Shown: positions 1 through 12,874 of the stretch, piece after piece | How the letters are laid out: each line of letters begins with the position of its first letter | Numbering within the stretch: the first letter of the stretch is position 1 | Source of the DNA: Candidatus Kryptonium sp. | GTDB lineage: Bacteria; Bacteroidota; Ignavibacteria; Kryptoniales; Kryptoniaceae | Length of the DNA: 64,000 bases | Assembly: GCA_025060635.1 (NCBI GenBank) | Contig: JANXBN010000001.1 | Coordinates: 124,001 to 188,000 of the forward strand | Direction of reading: 5' to 3' | Notes under the pieces: model-generated | Databases searched by the model: none | Told to the model about the DNA's origin: nothing | The model's input: the letters and a program-made list of their open reading frames with translations, nothing else | Translations under genes and position numbers: made by a program

Positions 1-2906
1 ACTTTTCTTGTAGAAATGTTATAGCTAAACATTGAGCCAGTGCTTAAAAATCTATATCTTAAGGAAAATTTTCTGCTGTTTTCAAATAAATGAAGATCTT
101 GCCTGAATGTGAGCGTTCCGCTTATCGTTTTATTCTCACGCTGGAAGTATCTCAATTTAAGAAGATAAATTTTTTCTTGTGATTCCGTGCTGTTTTCTGA
201 AATTTGGAAATATGTATCGCTTGAGAAGGGGGATAAAAATTTTGTTAATCTCTCTGGATAAAATTTCAAATTAAAACTTGCCTCAACATTTGCAGTTGGT
301 ATAAGTTGATCTCCAGGCAATGTGAGCATGATATAATCACCATCAAACTTAGTTTGCTCAAACTCGCTTGCATCTTGTATCCCATTGCCGTTTAAATCCC
401 CAAGGTATCTATAGTTTCCCGCTCCTTTTTGAACTTTTATAAAAACTGGTTCAAGGCGTGAAATCATCCTCGTCATTGCACGATAGATTAAATTTATTCT
501 CACCGCTCTTTTTAAAATCTCAGCTCTGCTTTGAGTTCTTATCAAAACATTGTTAGTAGATTTAATAGAATCAATAAGATAGTTTTTCCTGTTTAGCGTT
601 AGATCTCCGCTAAACTCAAATCGCTCGGCATTAATGTTTATTTTATAATTTTGATTTCTCATCACACTTAGGCGAGTGTAAGCTCCATTTCTCACGATGT
701 CATCAAATCTTATTTCATAAGAGAACGAACTTTTAATTTTTTTGAAGTTTATTTCAACCCCCGGGATCAATCTCAAAAATCTAAAACTTCCAATGTTTTG
801 TAAGTTGTCATTTATCAAATTCTCTCTCAATTCAGTTTCATAGTTTACGAATGGAGTTAAGATCCAAACTTTATACTTTCCAAGACCTTTGCTTCTTATC
901 CATTTTGATTTTGAAGTATCAAATTTTGAGAACAAAATTTCGGTGATGCTTTCAATTTCAGGCAAGATGTTTTCATTAGATCTAAAGCTAATCACACCTC
1001 TATCGGTTTTGAATTTGTTTTCGTTTTTGAGAAATCCGTATCCAAGTCCAAGTGAGCTCTTTTCGGAAATTTCAATTTGAAGATTTGATTCAAAAATTGA
1101 CTCGTCAAGTTGAGAAGTTTTATCTGTGATGTTCCATTTGCGGTTGAATTCAACGACATCAAATCTATCAAGAGCGGTGAAATTTTTATTTTTGTATCTT
1201 TGATAAAGGTTTAACTCAATTTTTCTCAATCCTTTTTCAAAAATTTTACCGCTTGAATAACCGAGACCGTATTTTAACGCAACTCCCTTGTTATCGCGAT
1301 CATCTATTGTGGAGAACTGATTTTTATCAAAACTGCTCATTGCTGACTCAACGAAAAATTTTAAGTTTTGTGTTTCATATTTTGTCCTTATGTCAAGAAT
1401 TTGTGAGGATTGTGGCATTGGAAGAAAAATTAAAGGTAGGTAATCTCCTTTGCCCTTGCCAACGAATTCGTATTTACCAATCCCGCGACGCACATAATCT
1501 CCTTTTCCAATCCCAACATATGAAAAACTTATTGAATAAAAAGCGTTTTTATCTCCTGGGGCGTAGACAAAAAATTCATATCTTTGAGAATCAATTATTG
1601 TATCTTTCTTGACATATTGTCCTTTCCCAATTCCCTTTGCTGAATCAAAGCCGACATAGATTATTCCGCTTTTTGTTGCTTTTAATCGGTCATCGCCACT
1701 GGTACGCAAGATTTCAATATCAGATTGTGAAAGAATAACATCAATTGGTGCTCTTTTGTTATCGGAATCGTAGAAGTAAGAGATTGATAAATTCAACTTA
1801 TCTTGAAAAAAAAGGTTATCGGAGACAAGAGCCAGAAAGTTTCTCGTGAATTTTCTGTCAGTGTATTGAAAATCAACTGTTATTCTTGAAGCGGAGGTTA
1901 TCAGGCGGTTTGGTGTAAATGTGATTTCGGCGGTTGAATAATCAATGATGTAATCGTTGCTTTCTCCTCTTAACATCAATTCTCCATCAATGTAAACTCT
2001 TTCTGTCCCGGCAATTACAATTATGTCTCTTTCACCATTTTGTCCAACCAATCTATACGGACCTTGAACCCCGTCAATCCCATTGAAATAATTTGTTGCA
2101 AATTTCCCTCTTGATGATGCAACTGCAAATGTGTTTTTGGTTTTTAGAAAGTCAAGTTGATAGTTTGCTTGAAATTTTCCGCCTTGTAATCTTCTTCTCA
2201 CATTTGAAAATTCTGGATCTTCTGAAAAGTATAATCTTTGTTCATCGCTTAGTTGATAGCCTATATCGTAATCTCCGAATGTAGCGAAAAGATTTTTAGT
2301 TTTCACCTGAATGAAAATTTTATCAATTTCCTGTAATGTCTGTGTATTTCCCTCTGGTTGAATTGGAATATTTTCATCTGTAAGTGAAGCAATTATTTCA
2401 ACATCTTTTGTCAAATTTCCAGATAGTTGAAGATTAAATCCTGATTGAAGCGTAAGGTCCCGATTGCTTCCGAATGTGAAACCACGAACTATGCTTCCAT
2501 TTCTTTGTATGTTTCCCGAAAAAGAAGGTATTTCTTTATGCTTTTCAATTCTAAGAGTTTTTTCCTCTTGGTGGTTTGATTCTAAAAATTCAATTCCTCT
2601 ATATTTGAAAAATAAAGTGTCAATTGGGATTGTTTTGTAGATCGCCTTAAGTTTGAACTTCGGGGAATCAATTTTTGAGATGATTGAGTTTTTTAGGTGA
2701 ACTTTGCCGATTTGGTAATAAATCTGGTAATGTATTCCTTGGAGAAGAGCAAGCGTATCAATGATTAAAATCTCGGTGCGAGGGACGATAAAACGGTGAG
2801 GTAGGTGAACTATTGAATCTCCTTTTGAAATTTCAATTTCAACTTTTTGAACCTGTGCAAAGCATAGAGCTGGCAGTAAGGCTAAAACATAAATTATGCG
2901 TTGCAT
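1..2906 (-). CDS. Large exported outer-membrane-type beta-barrel protein, 3' end cut by window edge
   Basis: The minus frame is open from an ATG at 2906 to the left edge, about 968 codons, and the C-terminus lies outside. It opens with a signal peptide (MQRIIYVLALLPALCFAQ). Next comes a segment containing EGNTQTLQEIDKIFIQ, which recalls a family of uncharacterised surface proteins of the FCB group. Then come alternating polar and aromatic strands typical of outer-membrane barrels. Four GxGKGxY-like motifs lie in the middle (coded at about 1430-1650), such as GIGKGDYVRRG and GKGKGDY. A calcium-loop-like motif GDLNGNGIQDASEF is coded near 370-420. The upstream flank is divergent to the polysaccharide genes. 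The frame, signal peptide and motifs are seen; the outer-membrane location is inferred. I do not recognise a specific function. Confidence 0.75.
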   Translation of the reverse strand, partial: MQRIIYVLALLPALCFAQVQKVEIEISKGDSIVHLPHRFIVPRTEILIIDTLALLQGIHYQIYYQIGKVHLKNSIISKIDSPKFKLKAIYKTIPIDTLFFKYRGIEFLESNHQEEKTLRIEKHKEIPSFSGNIQRNGSIVRGFTFGSNRDLTLQSGFNLQLSGNLTKDVEIIASLTDENIPIQPEGNTQTLQEIDKIFIQVKTKNLFATFGDYDIGYQLSDEQRLYFSEDPEFSNVRRRLQGGKFQANYQLDFLKTKNTFAVASSRGKFATNYFNGIDGVQGPYRLVGQNGERDIIVIAGTERVYIDGELMLRGESNDYIIDYSTAEITFTPNRLITSASRITVDFQYTDRKFTRNFLALVSDNLFFQDKLNLSISYFYDSDNKRAPIDVILSQSDIEILRTSGDDRLKATKSGIIYVGFDSAKGIGKGQYVKKDTIIDSQRYEFFVYAPGDKNAFYSISFSYVGIGKGDYVRRGIGKYEFVGKGKGDYLPLIFLPMPQSSQILDIRTKYETQNLKFFVESAMSSFDKNQFSTIDDRDNKGVALKYGLGYSSGKIFEKGLRKIELNLYQRYKNKNFTALDRFDVVEFNRKWNITDKTSQLDESIFESNLQIEISEKSSLGLGYGFLKNENKFKTDRGVISFRSNENILPEIESITEILFSKFDTSKSKWIRSKGLGKYKVWILTPFVNYETELRENLINDNLQNIGSFRFLRLIPGVEINFKKIKSSFSYEIRFDDIVRNGAYTRLSVMRNQNYKININAERFEFSGDLTLNRKNYLIDSIKSTNNVLIRTQSRAEILKRAVRINLIYRAMTRMISRLEPVFIKVQKGAGNYRYLGDLNGNGIQDASEFEQTKFDGDYIMLTLPGDQLIPTANVEASFNLKFYPERLTKFLSPFSSDTYFQISENSTESQEKIYLLKLRYFQRENKTISGTLTFRQDLHLFENSRKFSLRYRFLSTGSMFSYNISTRK

Positions 2907-4137: not shown

Positions 4138-4737
4138 TTGGATTTGAAGAACAAAATAGTTAAAAAGAAAGCAAAAGTCGGAGTTATTGGGCTTGGCTAT
4201 GTGGGTCTTCGTATTTTAGTTGATCCATATTATCTTGCGTGGTTTGCTAGAGCGTATGATTTTCATACGAACTTTATTGAGCTCGCAGCGGAGACAAATG
4301 AAGCAATGCCATTTTATGTAGTGAATTTAATCCTTCGTGAAATAAGCAAAATTCCGAAAAAATTGGAAGATGTAAAAATACTTTTTCTTGGCGTCGCTTT
4401 TAAGAAAAATGTTGATGACACACGACTTTCGCCAGCTCTTAAAATTATGGAGATACTTATTAGAGAAGGGGTAAGAAACATTTTTTACAATGATCCCTTC
4501 ATTCCTGAAGTTTCATTAAATGGAGCAAAATTTAAATCTATTGAATTAACGGATGAAAATTTGCGAAGTTTTGATCTCGTTGTGATAACAACAGATCACA
4601 GCGCTTATGATTTTGATTTTATTGCTCGGAATTCAAGAATTATAATTGACACTAAAAATGCAACGGGGAAAGTAAAGAATAGCGTTGCTAAAATCGTCAA
4701 ACTTGGTGGTGGAAATTATAATCAAAAACAAATTTAA
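4138..4737 (+). CDS. Nucleotide-sugar dehydrogenase (WbpA/UDP-glucose dehydrogenase family), internally deleted
   Basis: Family members are about 420-440 residues; this one is 199. Residues 14-25 (AKVGVIGLGYVG) are the start of the NAD-binding domain. The protein then jumps straight to VDPYYLAWFARAYDFHT, which normally follows the catalytic Cys about 230 residues later. The rest is an intact UDP-binding C-terminal domain, including LFLGVAFKKNVDDTRLSPAL. Most of the NAD-binding domain and the GGHC catalytic motif are therefore gone, yet the frame is kept. The start is a TTG with no clear Shine-Dalgarno. The product should lack dehydrogenase activity. A genuine deletion is the likeliest reading; an assembly collapse is the alternative. 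Confidence 0.8.
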   Translation: MDLKNKIVKKKAKVGVIGLGYVGLRILVDPYYLAWFARAYDFHTNFIELAAETNEAMPFYVVNLILREISKIPKKLEDVKILFLGVAFKKNVDDTRLSPALKIMEILIREGVRNIFYNDPFIPEVSLNGAKFKSIELTDENLRSFDLVVITTDHSAYDFDFIARNSRIIIDTKNATGKVKNSVAKIVKLGGGNYNQKQI

Positions 4738-7390: not shown

Positions 7391-8497
7391 ATGAGAAGAC
7401 CTGAGGACATAACTGTTGTCGTTGCGATGAGCGGTGGAGTTGATTCGTCTGTTGCAGCTGCGGTTCTGAAAGAACAGGGTTACAATTTAATTGGAATAAC
7501 CATAAAAACATACAATTACGAGGATATAGGAATACAAAACGAACATAGCTGCTGTTCGCTTGAAGGGATAAATGATGCAAGAACTGTTGCGACGAAGCTT
7601 GGATTCCCGCACTATGTGGTTGATCTTACTAAGGAGTTCCATCGCGAGGTGATAGATTATTTCATAAAAGATTATCTTGATGGAAGAACTCCAAATCCTT
7701 GTGTTATTTGTAATAGAAAAATAAAGTGGGAAGCACTTATTAAAAAGGCGATGTCGCTTGGGGCTGATTACATCGCAACAGGTCACTATGCACGAGTTAA
7801 ATTTGATGAAGTAAGGAAAAGATATATCTTGATGCGCGGGGTAGATTCATCAAAGGATCAATCGTATGCTCTATGGGGATTAAGTCAGGAAAGTTTAAGT
7901 AGGACGATTTTTCCACTTGGTGAATTTACTAAACAGGAAGTTAGAGAACTTGCAAAGAAATACGGTTTGAAGATCGCAAATAAACCTGAAAGCTTTGAGA
8001 TTTGTTTTGTTCCAGAGAATGATTATACGAAATTTCTTGAGAAGAATGTCAAAGGTCTTGCCGAAAAAGTTAAAGGTGGAGATATAGTTATGGATGGGAA
8101 AGTTATTGGGAAGCATCGTGGTTATCCATTTTATACAATCGGTCAAAGGAAAGGGCTTGGAATTGCGCTTGGATATCCTGTGTATGTAATCGGAATTGAT
8201 CCGGAGAAAAATGTCGTAGAAGTTGGAAAGGAGGAGAAACTTTATCATAATGCACTAATAGCCGGAAGTGTTAATTTAATTTCAGTTGAAAGAATTGAAA
8301 ACGGAATGAGGGTCACCGCCAAGATAAGATATTCTGATGAGGGAGATAGCGCAATTCTTGAAAATTGTTCGGATGGGAAGGTACTTGTAAAGTTTGAGAA
8401 GCCAAAGCGTGCAATCACACCAGGACAGTCGGTTGTGTTCTACGATGGTGATATTGTCATCGGCGGTGGTATAATTGAAAAAGCATTTGATGTTTAA
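7391..8497 (+). CDS. mnmA: tRNA-specific 2-thiouridylase MnmA
   Basis: The enzyme adds sulfur at position 2 of the wobble uridine 34 of Lys, Glu and Gln tRNAs, using ATP and a persulfide relay. The PP-loop [20 protein letters not shown] is at residues 13-32. The first catalytic Cys lies in [15 protein letters not shown], the second in [20 protein letters not shown] and [10 protein letters not shown] are family signatures. At 368 residues it has the normal length. It ends with a 4-base convergent overlap with lptB, so no terminator fits between them. Confidence 0.96.
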
Positions 8498-9285
8498 TAT
8501 CTGTCAAGTTTAAATTTTTCACCAAGATATAACTTCCTTGCCTCTGGATCGTTGGCGAGAAATTCGGCTGTTCCTTCTTTTAAAATTTGTCCTTCAAACA
8601 AAAGATATGCTCTGTCTGTAATTGAAAGTGTCTCGTGGACATTATGATCAGTTATTAAAACTCCGATGTTTCTATTTTTCAAATTTGCGACGATATTCAT
8701 TAAGTCCTCAACAGCAATCGGATCAATTCCAGCGAACGGTTCATCAAGAAGTATAAATTTGGGGTCTGTTGCAAGCGCGCGAGCGATTTCAGTTCTTCTT
8801 CTTTCTCCACCGCTTAACATATATCCTTTGCTTTTTCTAATGTGAGCTATACCGAAATCCTCAAGAAGTTTTTCAAGTTTTTCTTTCCTTTGTTCCGGTG
8901 TTAAATTCATAACTTGTAAAACAGCCATGATGTTTTCCTCAACCGTTAACTTCCTAAATATGCTTGCCTCTTGCGGTAAGTAACTTATACCTAATCTTGC
9001 TCTTTTATACATCGGTAATTTGGTTATCTCAATATCGTCAAGGAAAACCTTTCCAGCATTTGGTTTGATCATTCCAACGATCATGTAAAATGTCGTTGTC
9101 TTGCCAGCTCCATTTGGTCCAAGAAGCCCAACAACCTCACCTTGCCTTACTTCTATGCTGACATTTCGGACGACATATCTTTTCTTATATCTTTTGTAAA
9201 GTGACTCCGCTCGCAAGATGCTATTATTTGAGGTTTTTGAAATTTCGTCTTTTTTATTTGAGCCAAACAATTTCAAGCTTAGCAT
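8494..9285 (-). CDS. lptB: LPS export ABC transporter ATP-binding protein LptB
   Basis: This is the cytoplasmic ATPase that powers extraction of lipopolysaccharide from the inner membrane with LptF/LptG. Walker A is [16 protein letters not shown], the ABC signature is [15 protein letters not shown], Walker B is [13 protein letters not shown] and the switch His is in LITDHNVHE. The body matches LptB closely at about 240 residues, plus a 20-residue N-terminal extension that overlaps the upstream OstA-like gene by 32 bases. That overlap suggests translational coupling. TTG codons at residues 4 and 6 are alternative starts. Together the two genes indicate a Gram-negative envelope with LPS. Confidence 0.95.
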
Positions 9286-10657: not shown

Positions 10658-11830
10658 GTGCAGGAACTTGAGATTTTGATTGATGTTATAAGCTATCAGA
10701 GATTCAAAAATTTGTTTGAAGTAAATATGGCGGAGAAAAAGTCAATAGATAAAATTGAATCGGAACTGCAAAAGGGGGTAAACCTTGCTAAATGCAGAAA
10801 ATGTGGATGTATGAAGGAAACGCTTGAGTTGTTGTCAAATTCCCCTCAAATCGCAGGTTATGCCGATTTATTTAAGTGCGTTGAAAATTGGCTTTCTGAA
10901 ATGCAAGATATAGAATATCAGTGCCTTGGGTGCAAGTATTGTTATCCAGCGATAGCTATGAATATCTTTTATGAAACTTTTCCTGAAACGATATTACGCT
11001 CACCTGATCACATTGTTAATGTTCAAAATCAAACTTGGCCACCGATTCCTGGGGAATATTTTGCTTTTTGTGAAGGTCAAAATTGTCCCGTTGCAGTTTC
11101 AACGCTTTCTAATGCTGAACTTGCGGAAAAGATTGCCAGGATAAAACCATATGGACTTTGCATTGTTGGTAAAACGGAGACGGAAAATATAGGGATGGAG
11201 AAAGTCATCAAGAATATAATAACTAATACAACCATTCGGTTTCTTCTCTTGGTAGGTAAAGATTCGGCAGGACATTTTAGCGGGGAAACATTTATTGCGC
11301 TATGGAAAAATGGCGTTGATGAAAATATGAAAATAATAGGCTCTCCTGGAAAACATCCAGTATTAAGGAATGTAACTAAACACGAAGTTGAATCTTTTCG
11401 TAAACAAATCAAAATTGTAAATATGATCGGATGTGAGGATGAAAATAAAATTGTTGGGGAAATTGAGAAACTTTCCCGAGAAGTTAAAACTTGCGCTTGT
11501 AAATTTGGTTCTTGGAAAATAAATCGTGAAGAAATTTCCGCTGTTGAAGTTATCCAAGCTGAGGAACCTGAAAAAATTGAGATGGATAAAGCAGGATACT
11601 TCGTTATTATACCACAACTACACAGAAATATCATAGTGGTTGAGCACTACTCCTATAACAATGAACTTTTGCATGTAATTGAGGGAAAAGACGCAAGAAG
11701 TATTTATTGGACTATAATCAAAAATGGTTGGGTTACTCAACTTTCACATTCCGCATACCTTGGCAAGGAGCTTGCAAGAGCTGAACTTTCGCTTAAACTT
11801 GGTTTCAAATATATCCAAGATAAAGCTTGA
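10658..11830 (+). CDS. MtrA-like corrinoid-type protein with C-terminal DUF4346
   Basis: Residues about 140-260 resemble subunit A of archaeal tetrahydromethanopterin S-methyltransferase: CPVAVSTLSNAELAEKIA, then TETENIGMEKVIKNII, then LVGKDSAGHFSGETF. The His at 206 in this last motif sits where MtrA carries its cobalt-ligating His. In front lies a cysteine-rich segment (Cys 46, 49, 51, 74, 89, 92, 95) able to hold an Fe-S cluster or zinc. Residues about 290-390 fit DUF4346. No other Mtr subunit is nearby, and the function in bacteria is unknown to me. The start is GTG at 10658; an ATG at 10727 (residue 24) is an alternative. It ends directly against the convergent heptosyltransferase gene. 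Confidence 0.72.
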   Translation: MQELEILIDVISYQRFKNLFEVNMAEKKSIDKIESELQKGVNLAKCRKCGCMKETLELLSNSPQIAGYADLFKCVENWLSEMQDIEYQCLGCKYCYPAIAMNIFYETFPETILRSPDHIVNVQNQTWPPIPGEYFAFCEGQNCPVAVSTLSNAELAEKIARIKPYGLCIVGKTETENIGMEKVIKNIITNTTIRFLLLVGKDSAGHFSGETFIALWKNGVDENMKIIGSPGKHPVLRNVTKHEVESFRKQIKIVNMIGCEDENKIVGEIEKLSREVKTCACKFGSWKINREEISAVEVIQAEEPEKIEMDKAGYFVIIPQLHRNIIVVEHYSYNNELLHVIEGKDARSIYWTIIKNGWVTQLSHSAYLGKELARAELSLKLGFKYIQDKA

Positions 11831-12874
11831 TCAGGAACTAATTTTGTTTGCTTTTTTATTCTTTTCAATAAGTTTGAGAAATGCCTCGTAAACTGTTTCA
11901 ACGCTCAAATCCCTCATGCAAACATTTCCAATTGGACATTTTGTTAAGTTACAAGCGATGCATTCAAGGGATTCTTTTCTTATCCATAGATGTTTTTCGC
12001 CATATGGACCTTGTGCGTAAGGATTTGTTGGTCCGTAAATTCCAAGCGTTGGGGTTCCAACAGCAGTTGAAATATGCATTGGACCTGAATCATTGCTTAT
12101 TGTAAATGAGCACCTTTTTAAAATTGAAGCAAGCTGTTTCAAGCTTGTTTTTGGTGGGATTATGGGTTTTAAATTCATCATTGAATCTATTTTTTTAGCG
12201 TCTTCAAGTTCTTCAGCGTTGCCCCATAAAATCAAGATTTTCGCATTTAAATTTTTAGCTATCATATCACCGAGTTTTGCGAATTTTTCAAGCCCCCATC
12301 TTTTTGTTTCCCATGTCCCGCTTGGATTTATAGCAACGACCATTTCATTATTCAAATTATTTTCTTCCCAGAAATTTTTCGCAAAATTTTCAGATTCTTC
12401 GGAAAGTGGCATGTAAATTTTCTTATCAATGATCTCAAGACCTATAGATCTCAAGGCGTCAAGGTTGAACTCAACATTATGATGTACTTCTTTTCGTGGT
12501 TTAAGTTTGATATTATATGCATAGCCTCTGCCGCGAAATGCATAGCCGACTCGGTATTTCGCTCTAGTTATAAATGTCAGCAGGGCCGATCTCGGATTGC
12601 AGAAAAGGTCTATTACAAGGTCGTATTTTCTATTACTTAATTCCCAAAACTTTTTTAAGTCGTTTTTATGTCGTTCAAAGATTATAAGCTCGTCAACGAA
12701 TGGATTACCTTCAATAATTTCTCTTGATGGGGGTTCGGTTAAAAAGTCAATTTTTGCGTTCGGGAAATTGTGTCTCAGGTTTTTTAGGACAACTGTTGAT
12801 AAGAGAACATCGCCAATTGCGCGAAGTTTTATGACGAGAATTTTGTTAATTTTTTCCTTTTGAATTTGGAACAA
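11831..12874 (-). CDS. waaF: ADP-heptose:LPS heptosyltransferase family (GT9) glycosyltransferase
   Basis: The protein belongs to glycosyltransferase family 9, which transfers heptose from ADP-heptose to the LPS core. Visible signatures are ILVIKLRAIGDVLLSTVVL at the N-terminus, AINPSGTWETKRW in the middle, and FTISNDSGPMHISTAVGTPT followed by IYGPTNP near the C-terminus. A Cys cluster (CIACNLTKCPIGNVCM) near the end is common in this family. At 347 residues it has normal length. The start is a TTG at 12874; no ATG or GTG lies before the conserved region. An AAGGA just downstream precedes an in-frame ATT, so the true start is uncertain. The exact acceptor is inferred. Confidence 0.87.
   Translation of the reverse strand: MFQIQKEKINKILVIKLRAIGDVLLSTVVLKNLRHNFPNAKIDFLTEPPSREIIEGNPFVDELIIFERHKNDLKKFWELSNRKYDLVIDLFCNPRSALLTFITRAKYRVGYAFRGRGYAYNIKLKPRKEVHHNVEFNLDALRSIGLEIIDKKIYMPLSEESENFAKNFWEENNLNNEMVVAINPSGTWETKRWGLEKFAKLGDMIAKNLNAKILILWGNAEELEDAKKIDSMMNLKPIIPPKTSLKQLASILKRCSFTISNDSGPMHISTAVGTPTLGIYGPTNPYAQGPYGEKHLWIRKESLECIACNLTKCPIGNVCMRDLSVETVYEAFLKLIEKNKKANKISS

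Follow-up and report, generated by a model that had tools for sequence, protein, structure and literature searches.

MtrA (PF04208, TIGR01111; PDB 5laa, 5l8x) is the corrinoid subunit of methyl-H4MPT:coenzyme M methyltransferase, and the present locus raises the question of what an MtrA-like protein does in a bacterium of the genus Candidatus Kryptonium, away from any other mtr gene. The gene occupies positions 10658-11830 of the forward strand of the window (the whole stretch of DNA analyzed, 64 kb long), and as first listed it encodes 390 amino acids from a GTG start. The ATG at 10727 (Met24) is the more likely start, because alignments with homologues begin at about residues 22-26. Lipopolysaccharide-export-type genes flank it on one side and a glycosyltransferase on the other; no metal gene, functional partner or mtr neighbor was found in the 64-kb window, nor were partners for the gene, if any, found in its own genome. 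At positions 4138-4737 of the same strand, the window also contains a 199-aa UDP-sugar dehydrogenase-like frame with the NAD-binding N-terminal part joined straight to the C-terminal half, probably a remnant gene produced by an internal deletion.

A Pfam search bore out the domain composition proposed in the preliminary description, an MtrA-like core with a DUF4346 tail. The MtrA-type corrinoid-binding domain (residues 124-273, positions 11027-11476) matches PF04208 with an E-value of 2.7e-38 (131.7 bits, compared to the curated cut-off of 25), and sequence matches in PDB (5l8x, 5laa, 8q3v and 9qtq) agree with this assignment. The C-terminal PterinBD-DUF4346 domain (residues 309-388, positions 11582-11821) matches PF14251 far above the curated cut-off (E-value 1.1e-22); its residues E329, H330, Y331, H364 and E371 are invariant in the homologue alignment, and a search of the own genome for a second DUF4346 partner found only this one copy. 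Between the two domains the alignments place a linker cysteine pair, C279 and C281 (positions 11492-11500), in a region that is Cys-rich in relatives. The structural match to MtrA, on which the preliminary description had staked its assignment, was found when the AlphaFold model of the protein (pLDDT 72, pTM 0.49) was compared by Foldseek with cobalamin-bound MtrA (5laa; E-value 5.6e-14, TM-score 0.83 on the target). The N-terminal and DUF4346 parts of the model gave no significant Foldseek match.

According to Wagner and colleagues (PMC4915002), MtrA holds cobalamin by His84 as the cobalt ligand, by Glu54 as the partner of this histidine, and by Thr53, Asn55, Gly57, Val61 and Asn64. With a constant offset of 122 they map to H206, E176, T175, N177, G179, V183 and N186 of the window protein. 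All of these except V183 are identical in 48 of 48 aligned homologues, and the V183 position is filled by Val, Ile or Leu. Thus His206 (positions 11273-11275, motif GHFSG), earlier put forward as a candidate cobalt ligand, is the equivalent of the MtrA ligand and is retained in every homologue aligned. Because the MtrA contact residues are conserved in this way and the AlphaFold model matches 5laa, the protein very likely binds a corrinoid in the base-off/His-on mode. The supply of cobalamin in the own genome, where one weak B12-binding_2 match was the only hit, is uncertain.

The N-terminal segment (positions 10793-10942) has the form C46-x2-C49-x-C51 ... C89-x2-C92-x2-C95. It had been described as a seven-cysteine N-terminus; six of these cysteines are conserved in all 48 homologues, and the seventh, Cys74, lying between the two motifs, is not. 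The invariance holds at position 89 (codon 10922-10924) if 43 cysteines are counted together with five predicted selenocysteines. Each of the five homologue-bearing genomes found among 146 genomes of one order of Desulfobacterota, that of G740, has a single in-frame TGA in the gene, exactly at the C89 equivalent and in the context HxULGCxPC, and SelB scores above cut-off in the two TGA-bearing genomes tested (G740 and G584). Fold energies of a SECIS-like hairpin 3' of the TGA were no better than those of shuffled sequences. We predict that the TGA encodes selenocysteine, and for this reason we prefer soft-metal or redox chemistry, as this position suggests, to ordinary Fe-S ligation by the C89-position thiol. 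No known Fe-S profile matches the protein. Of the initial suggestion of a corrinoid or Fe-S protein the corrinoid half is retained through the MtrA-type domain; the predicted selenocysteine at the C89 position fits an ordinary Fe-S ligand less well than a soft-metal or redox ligand. A probable role in methyl transfer outside methanogenesis, also suggested at the outset, is supported by the same domain and by the conserved histidine and cysteines. In two loci a metF-like gene, possibly the source of methyl-THF, lies in one same-strand run with the selenocysteine form (L133, positions 7816-8706, reverse strand; L134, positions 3-953, forward strand).

Distribution of the family is rare and patchy. 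The homologue search detected carriers in 2 of 396 genomes of the own phylum, in 11 of 395 genomes of one desulfobacterial phylum, and in 10 of 198 genomes in the phylum of a Nitrospiraceae genome; homologues at 45-64% identity reach many phyla, including archaea, and some are located on plasmids. Carriage by phages was rejected, since viral contigs and phages gave no match to the protein. In the phylogenetic tree the window protein belongs to a clade with support 100/99, whose 21 rows represent many phyla. Its congeners are no nearer to it than a Myxococcota protein, which points to horizontal transfer, and we take the isolated copy in the own genome to be an acquired one. The own genome and that of Ca. 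Kryptonium thompsonii (record LDXX01000004) are of one genus. Two relatives carry broken pieces of the gene: a DUF4346-only protein of 120 aa (L012, positions 12046-12408, forward strand), located beside a SHOCT protein and with the full gene about 4-5 kb upstream of it, and another DUF4346 fragment in L017, both remnants of repeated insertion or loss. Unlike all other groups, the Thermodesulfovibrionia-type loci (L046 and L115-L119, in the phylum of G440) have a fixed chromosomal place beside parA/parB and no metal genes.

A survey of 54 loci of homologues, with partners counted within 3.5 kb, gave a lead to function that the window alone could not provide. Of the 54, 12 have an ArsR/SmtB regulator, 14 an OB-fold-like exported cysteine protein and 15 a MerT-like membrane protein; 22 have one or more of these partners, each time with a copy on the same strand. 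From the background frequency of ArsR (about 85 genes above cut-off in 58 Mb from 19 of the carrier genomes, or about 1.45 per Mb) approximately 0.6 ArsR loci would be expected by chance, compared to the 12 observed, an approximately twentyfold enrichment. For 11 of 48 loci the association has p of about 1e-11; the loci are partly non-independent (for example, L098-L100), and the excess stays large after collapsing them. Same-strand linkage to metalloregulators or transporters therefore exceeds chance at the level of the family, but it is absent at the window locus itself, where the gene indeed stands alone, as first described; its homologues are found in metal-resistance operons, accompanied by conserved partner genes. 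No metal gene lies near about half of the loci, the window included, in some cases because the contig is short; in the Thermodesulfovibrionia set the lack is genuine. The 'metal' label is mildly clustered on the tree (12 changes versus 15.9 for shuffles), and partners have therefore been gained and lost often.

Individual loci illustrate this context. In the archaeon BMS3Abin16 (L043) the gene order is ArsR, MerB, the MtrA-like gene, DsbD, MerA (TIGR02053, above cut-off), ArsR and a ZntA-like ATPase; in G852 (L123) it is ArsR, the MtrA-like gene and MerT (50.6 bits, cut-off 32.9). The mobilizable Planococcus plasmid pA26H3 carries ArsR, an HMA protein, a heavy-metal P-type ATPase, the MtrA-like gene, whose product has extra Cys-rich repeats, and an ISL3 transposase. 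ArsR accompanies an ArsP-family permease in L027 and L034, for which the closest NCBIfam models, a Cu/Zn exporter and SaoE, both score below cut-off. Other neighbors are an Acr3-like permease (L028), a heavy-metal ATPase with HMA domains (L040), CusCBA-type efflux genes (L022 and L019), and CcdA/DsbD, thioredoxin and glutaredoxin-like proteins (L027, L043 and L120). L019 belongs to Ca. Kryptonium thompsonii, the only member of the own genus with a metal context. The metal-resistance context of the family is thus well supported.

The membrane partner, of about 150-170 aa, has the invariant core CFLxGCCGSPMLavYL...KPL and, like the MerT of L123, with which it aligns, contains GCC-x-x-P ... KPL (one hhalign comparison: 89%, with 59 columns at 34% identity). 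Pfam does not call it MerT, and we regard its homology to MerT, as judged from these alignments, as moderate. In four loci (L030, L034, L039 and L102) the MerT-like part is fused to the N-terminus of the corrinoid protein; no other observation points as strongly to joint action of the two proteins as this fusion taken with the repeated adjacency of the genes. The OB-fold-like exported protein (L095, L098-L100, L122 and others) has a LGCEDAC-type cysteine pair, is sometimes a predicted lipoprotein and matches no Pfam family; it is an unnamed component of the module, in which its gene and that of the MerT-like protein make up a pair.

We tentatively favor a corrinoid methyl-transfer protein of a metal-resistance module that would methylate a soft metal ion; what we infer here is which reaction takes place, in which direction, and on which metal. 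The protein would be cytoplasmic, in some species membrane-tethered, and would receive a soft metal or metalloid ion from the MerT-like membrane partner on its N-terminal thiols or selenol, Hg(II) being the best candidate and As, Sb or Cu-type ions possible. The adjacent methyl-corrinoid, base-off and His-on through His206, would then give its methyl group to the bound ion, much as in HgcA, and the product could be exported, volatilized or cleaved by co-encoded handlers of organometals such as the ArsP-type permease and MerB. The C-terminal DUF4346 may be where the pterin-side methyl donor docks or is bound. A search for a dedicated methyl donor enzyme found none, MtrH occurring in only 3 of 39 carrier genomes. 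It also counts against methylation that the protective value of a single methylation of Hg(II) is not obvious. The resistance context would be better suited by the reverse direction, in which the cob(I) form removes the methyl group from an organometal such as methylmercury or methylarsenic, bound to the N-terminal thiols or selenol, and passes it to a pterin. The organometal lyase MerB adjoining the gene in L043, the MerT-like import partner, the metF of L133 and L134, and the occurrence of DUF4346 in dihydropteroate-synthase-like proteins (L078 and L080; TIGR00284 match) would all fit this direction. However, between methyl-cobalamin and Hg(II) in free solution the methyl group moves spontaneously to the metal, a partner for reductive reactivation was not found, and the ArsP-type and Cus exporters suit export of a product equally well. 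We consider demethylation somewhat improbable and place it below methylation.

Two further explanations dispense with methyl transfer to or from metals. The invariant Cys/Sec motif, the additional Cys-rich repeats of the Planococcus protein and the thioredoxin-type and CcdA/DsbD neighbors in L027, L043 and L120 could belong to a metal-responsive redox protein or chaperone, buffering or reducing metal by its N-terminal and linker cysteines and using the corrinoid for electron transfer or sensing. Against this, all the cobalamin contacts of a His-on methyl carrier are kept without exception, as is a pterin-linked domain at the C-terminus, and we consider this explanation unlikely. The last explanation, that of a housekeeping one-carbon methyl carrier with coincidental metal neighbors, could draw on MtrA itself, the predicted methyl donor of the core methionine synthase MesA in methanogens (PMC7857596), on the half of the loci without metal genes, and on the stable chromosomal synteny in Thermodesulfovibrionia. 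It disagrees with the twentyfold ArsR enrichment and the patchy distribution described above; moreover, the own genome has a full-length MetE (a frame of 766 aa), and a PF01717 protein is wholly absent from 17 of 28 carrier genomes tested, on which grounds a methyl donor for methionine synthase was rejected. We consider such a housekeeping carrier very improbable. A broader proposal, more doubtful than the favored methylation, leaves the direction open: the family may represent a second, HgcA-independent corrinoid system for methyl transfer on metals or metalloids, spread horizontally in bacterial and archaeal metal-resistance islands, with a MerT-like import domain feeding the Cys/Sec site.

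Should metals be methylated or demethylated by these proteins, the family would be an overlooked, widespread and mobile factor that determines the speciation of mercury or arsenic, and would add to HgcA a second way in which B12 acts on metals; it would escape surveys limited to hgcA, merB and arsM. Anaerobic mer-independent demethylation of methylmercury is recognized, with pathways still to be explored (PMC12997803, PMC10349881), and a demethylating family could be a missing enzyme of this mer-independent (oxidative) demethylation of methylmercury or of organometals. Concrete handles for testing are offered by the fusion with the MerT-like domain and by the form in which selenocysteine is predicted. 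No mention of DUF4346 was found in the literature searched, although work on Sec-assisted organometallic systems may mention the family; searches for MtrA combined with arsenic or mercury returned nothing relevant, and 'MtrA' is absent from a 2026 selenoproteome review.

Comparison with known systems shows partial resemblance to several. TIGR00284 dihydropteroate synthase-like proteins have the C-terminal DUF4346 in common with the window protein (60.5 bits) but carry a dihydropteroate-synthase-like barrel in place of MtrA; none was found in the own genome. Two carriers, an archaeon (G437, L078) and a bacterium (G425, L080), encode dihydropteroate-synthase-like proteins with a C-terminal DUF4346-type domain, and the gene next to the latter resembles a FolB/pterin-type enzyme. 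The mer operon is resembled in those genomes where MerT or the MerT-like partner, MerB and MerA adjoin the MtrA-like gene; we know of no mer operon that includes a corrinoid protein. The mercury methylator HgcA (NF040863), which is partnered with HgcB, would be the functional analogue: there, too, a corrinoid domain goes with a membrane domain, either fused or as a separate partner, and with reactive cysteines, and ArsR control is frequent, hgcAB often being under control of ArsR (PMC10349881); Sec forms are listed for HgcA as well (PMC13188914). In contrast, the corrinoid fold of HgcA is unrelated and of the CFeSP type, and the window family lacks the N(V/I)WC cap helix. The HgcA profile matches nothing in the own genome, the window gene included, and only 1 of 39 carrier genomes has HgcA above cut-off, so that a link to HgcA was rejected. 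In this sole carrier (G435:C27:6186-7100; L135) an ArsR gene (C27:5773-5982) directly adjoins HgcA, as the literature describes for hgcAB.

With MtrA the family has in common the corrinoid-binding Rossmann domain and identical equivalents of the Co-ligand His, the Glu54 relay, Thr53, Asn55, Gly57 and Asn64. Unlike MtrA, it adds the N-terminal Cys/Sec segment and DUF4346 and lacks the C-terminal membrane helix and an mtr operon; the score against the TIGR01111 equivalog (119 bits) is below the cut-off of 249. The observation in the preliminary description that no other Mtr gene is around extends, for MtrH, to the whole genome, which has none, as is the case in 36 of 39 carriers, and membership in an Mtr complex or in methanogenesis was rejected for lack of MtrH and mtr genes. 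The same full-length architecture is found in NCBIfam NF002128 (PRK00964.1-6, 'tetrahydromethanopterin S-methyltransferase subunit A'), which the window protein matches with 415 bits over residues 25-390 (profile positions 8-370 of 390), below the curated cut-off of 568; other family members score 255-462 bits. Therefore the three-part architecture has been modeled before and is previously seen, if uncharacterized. The name of the model implies a function without support in the carrier genomes, and the methanogenesis-subunit label on these proteins is very probably wrong. As judged from sequence, this is a genuine, uncharacterized family of predicted corrinoid proteins mislabeled as a methanogenesis subunit, and what appears to be new in it is its occurrence in metal-resistance operons, the MerT-like partner with its fusions, and the predicted selenocysteine form.
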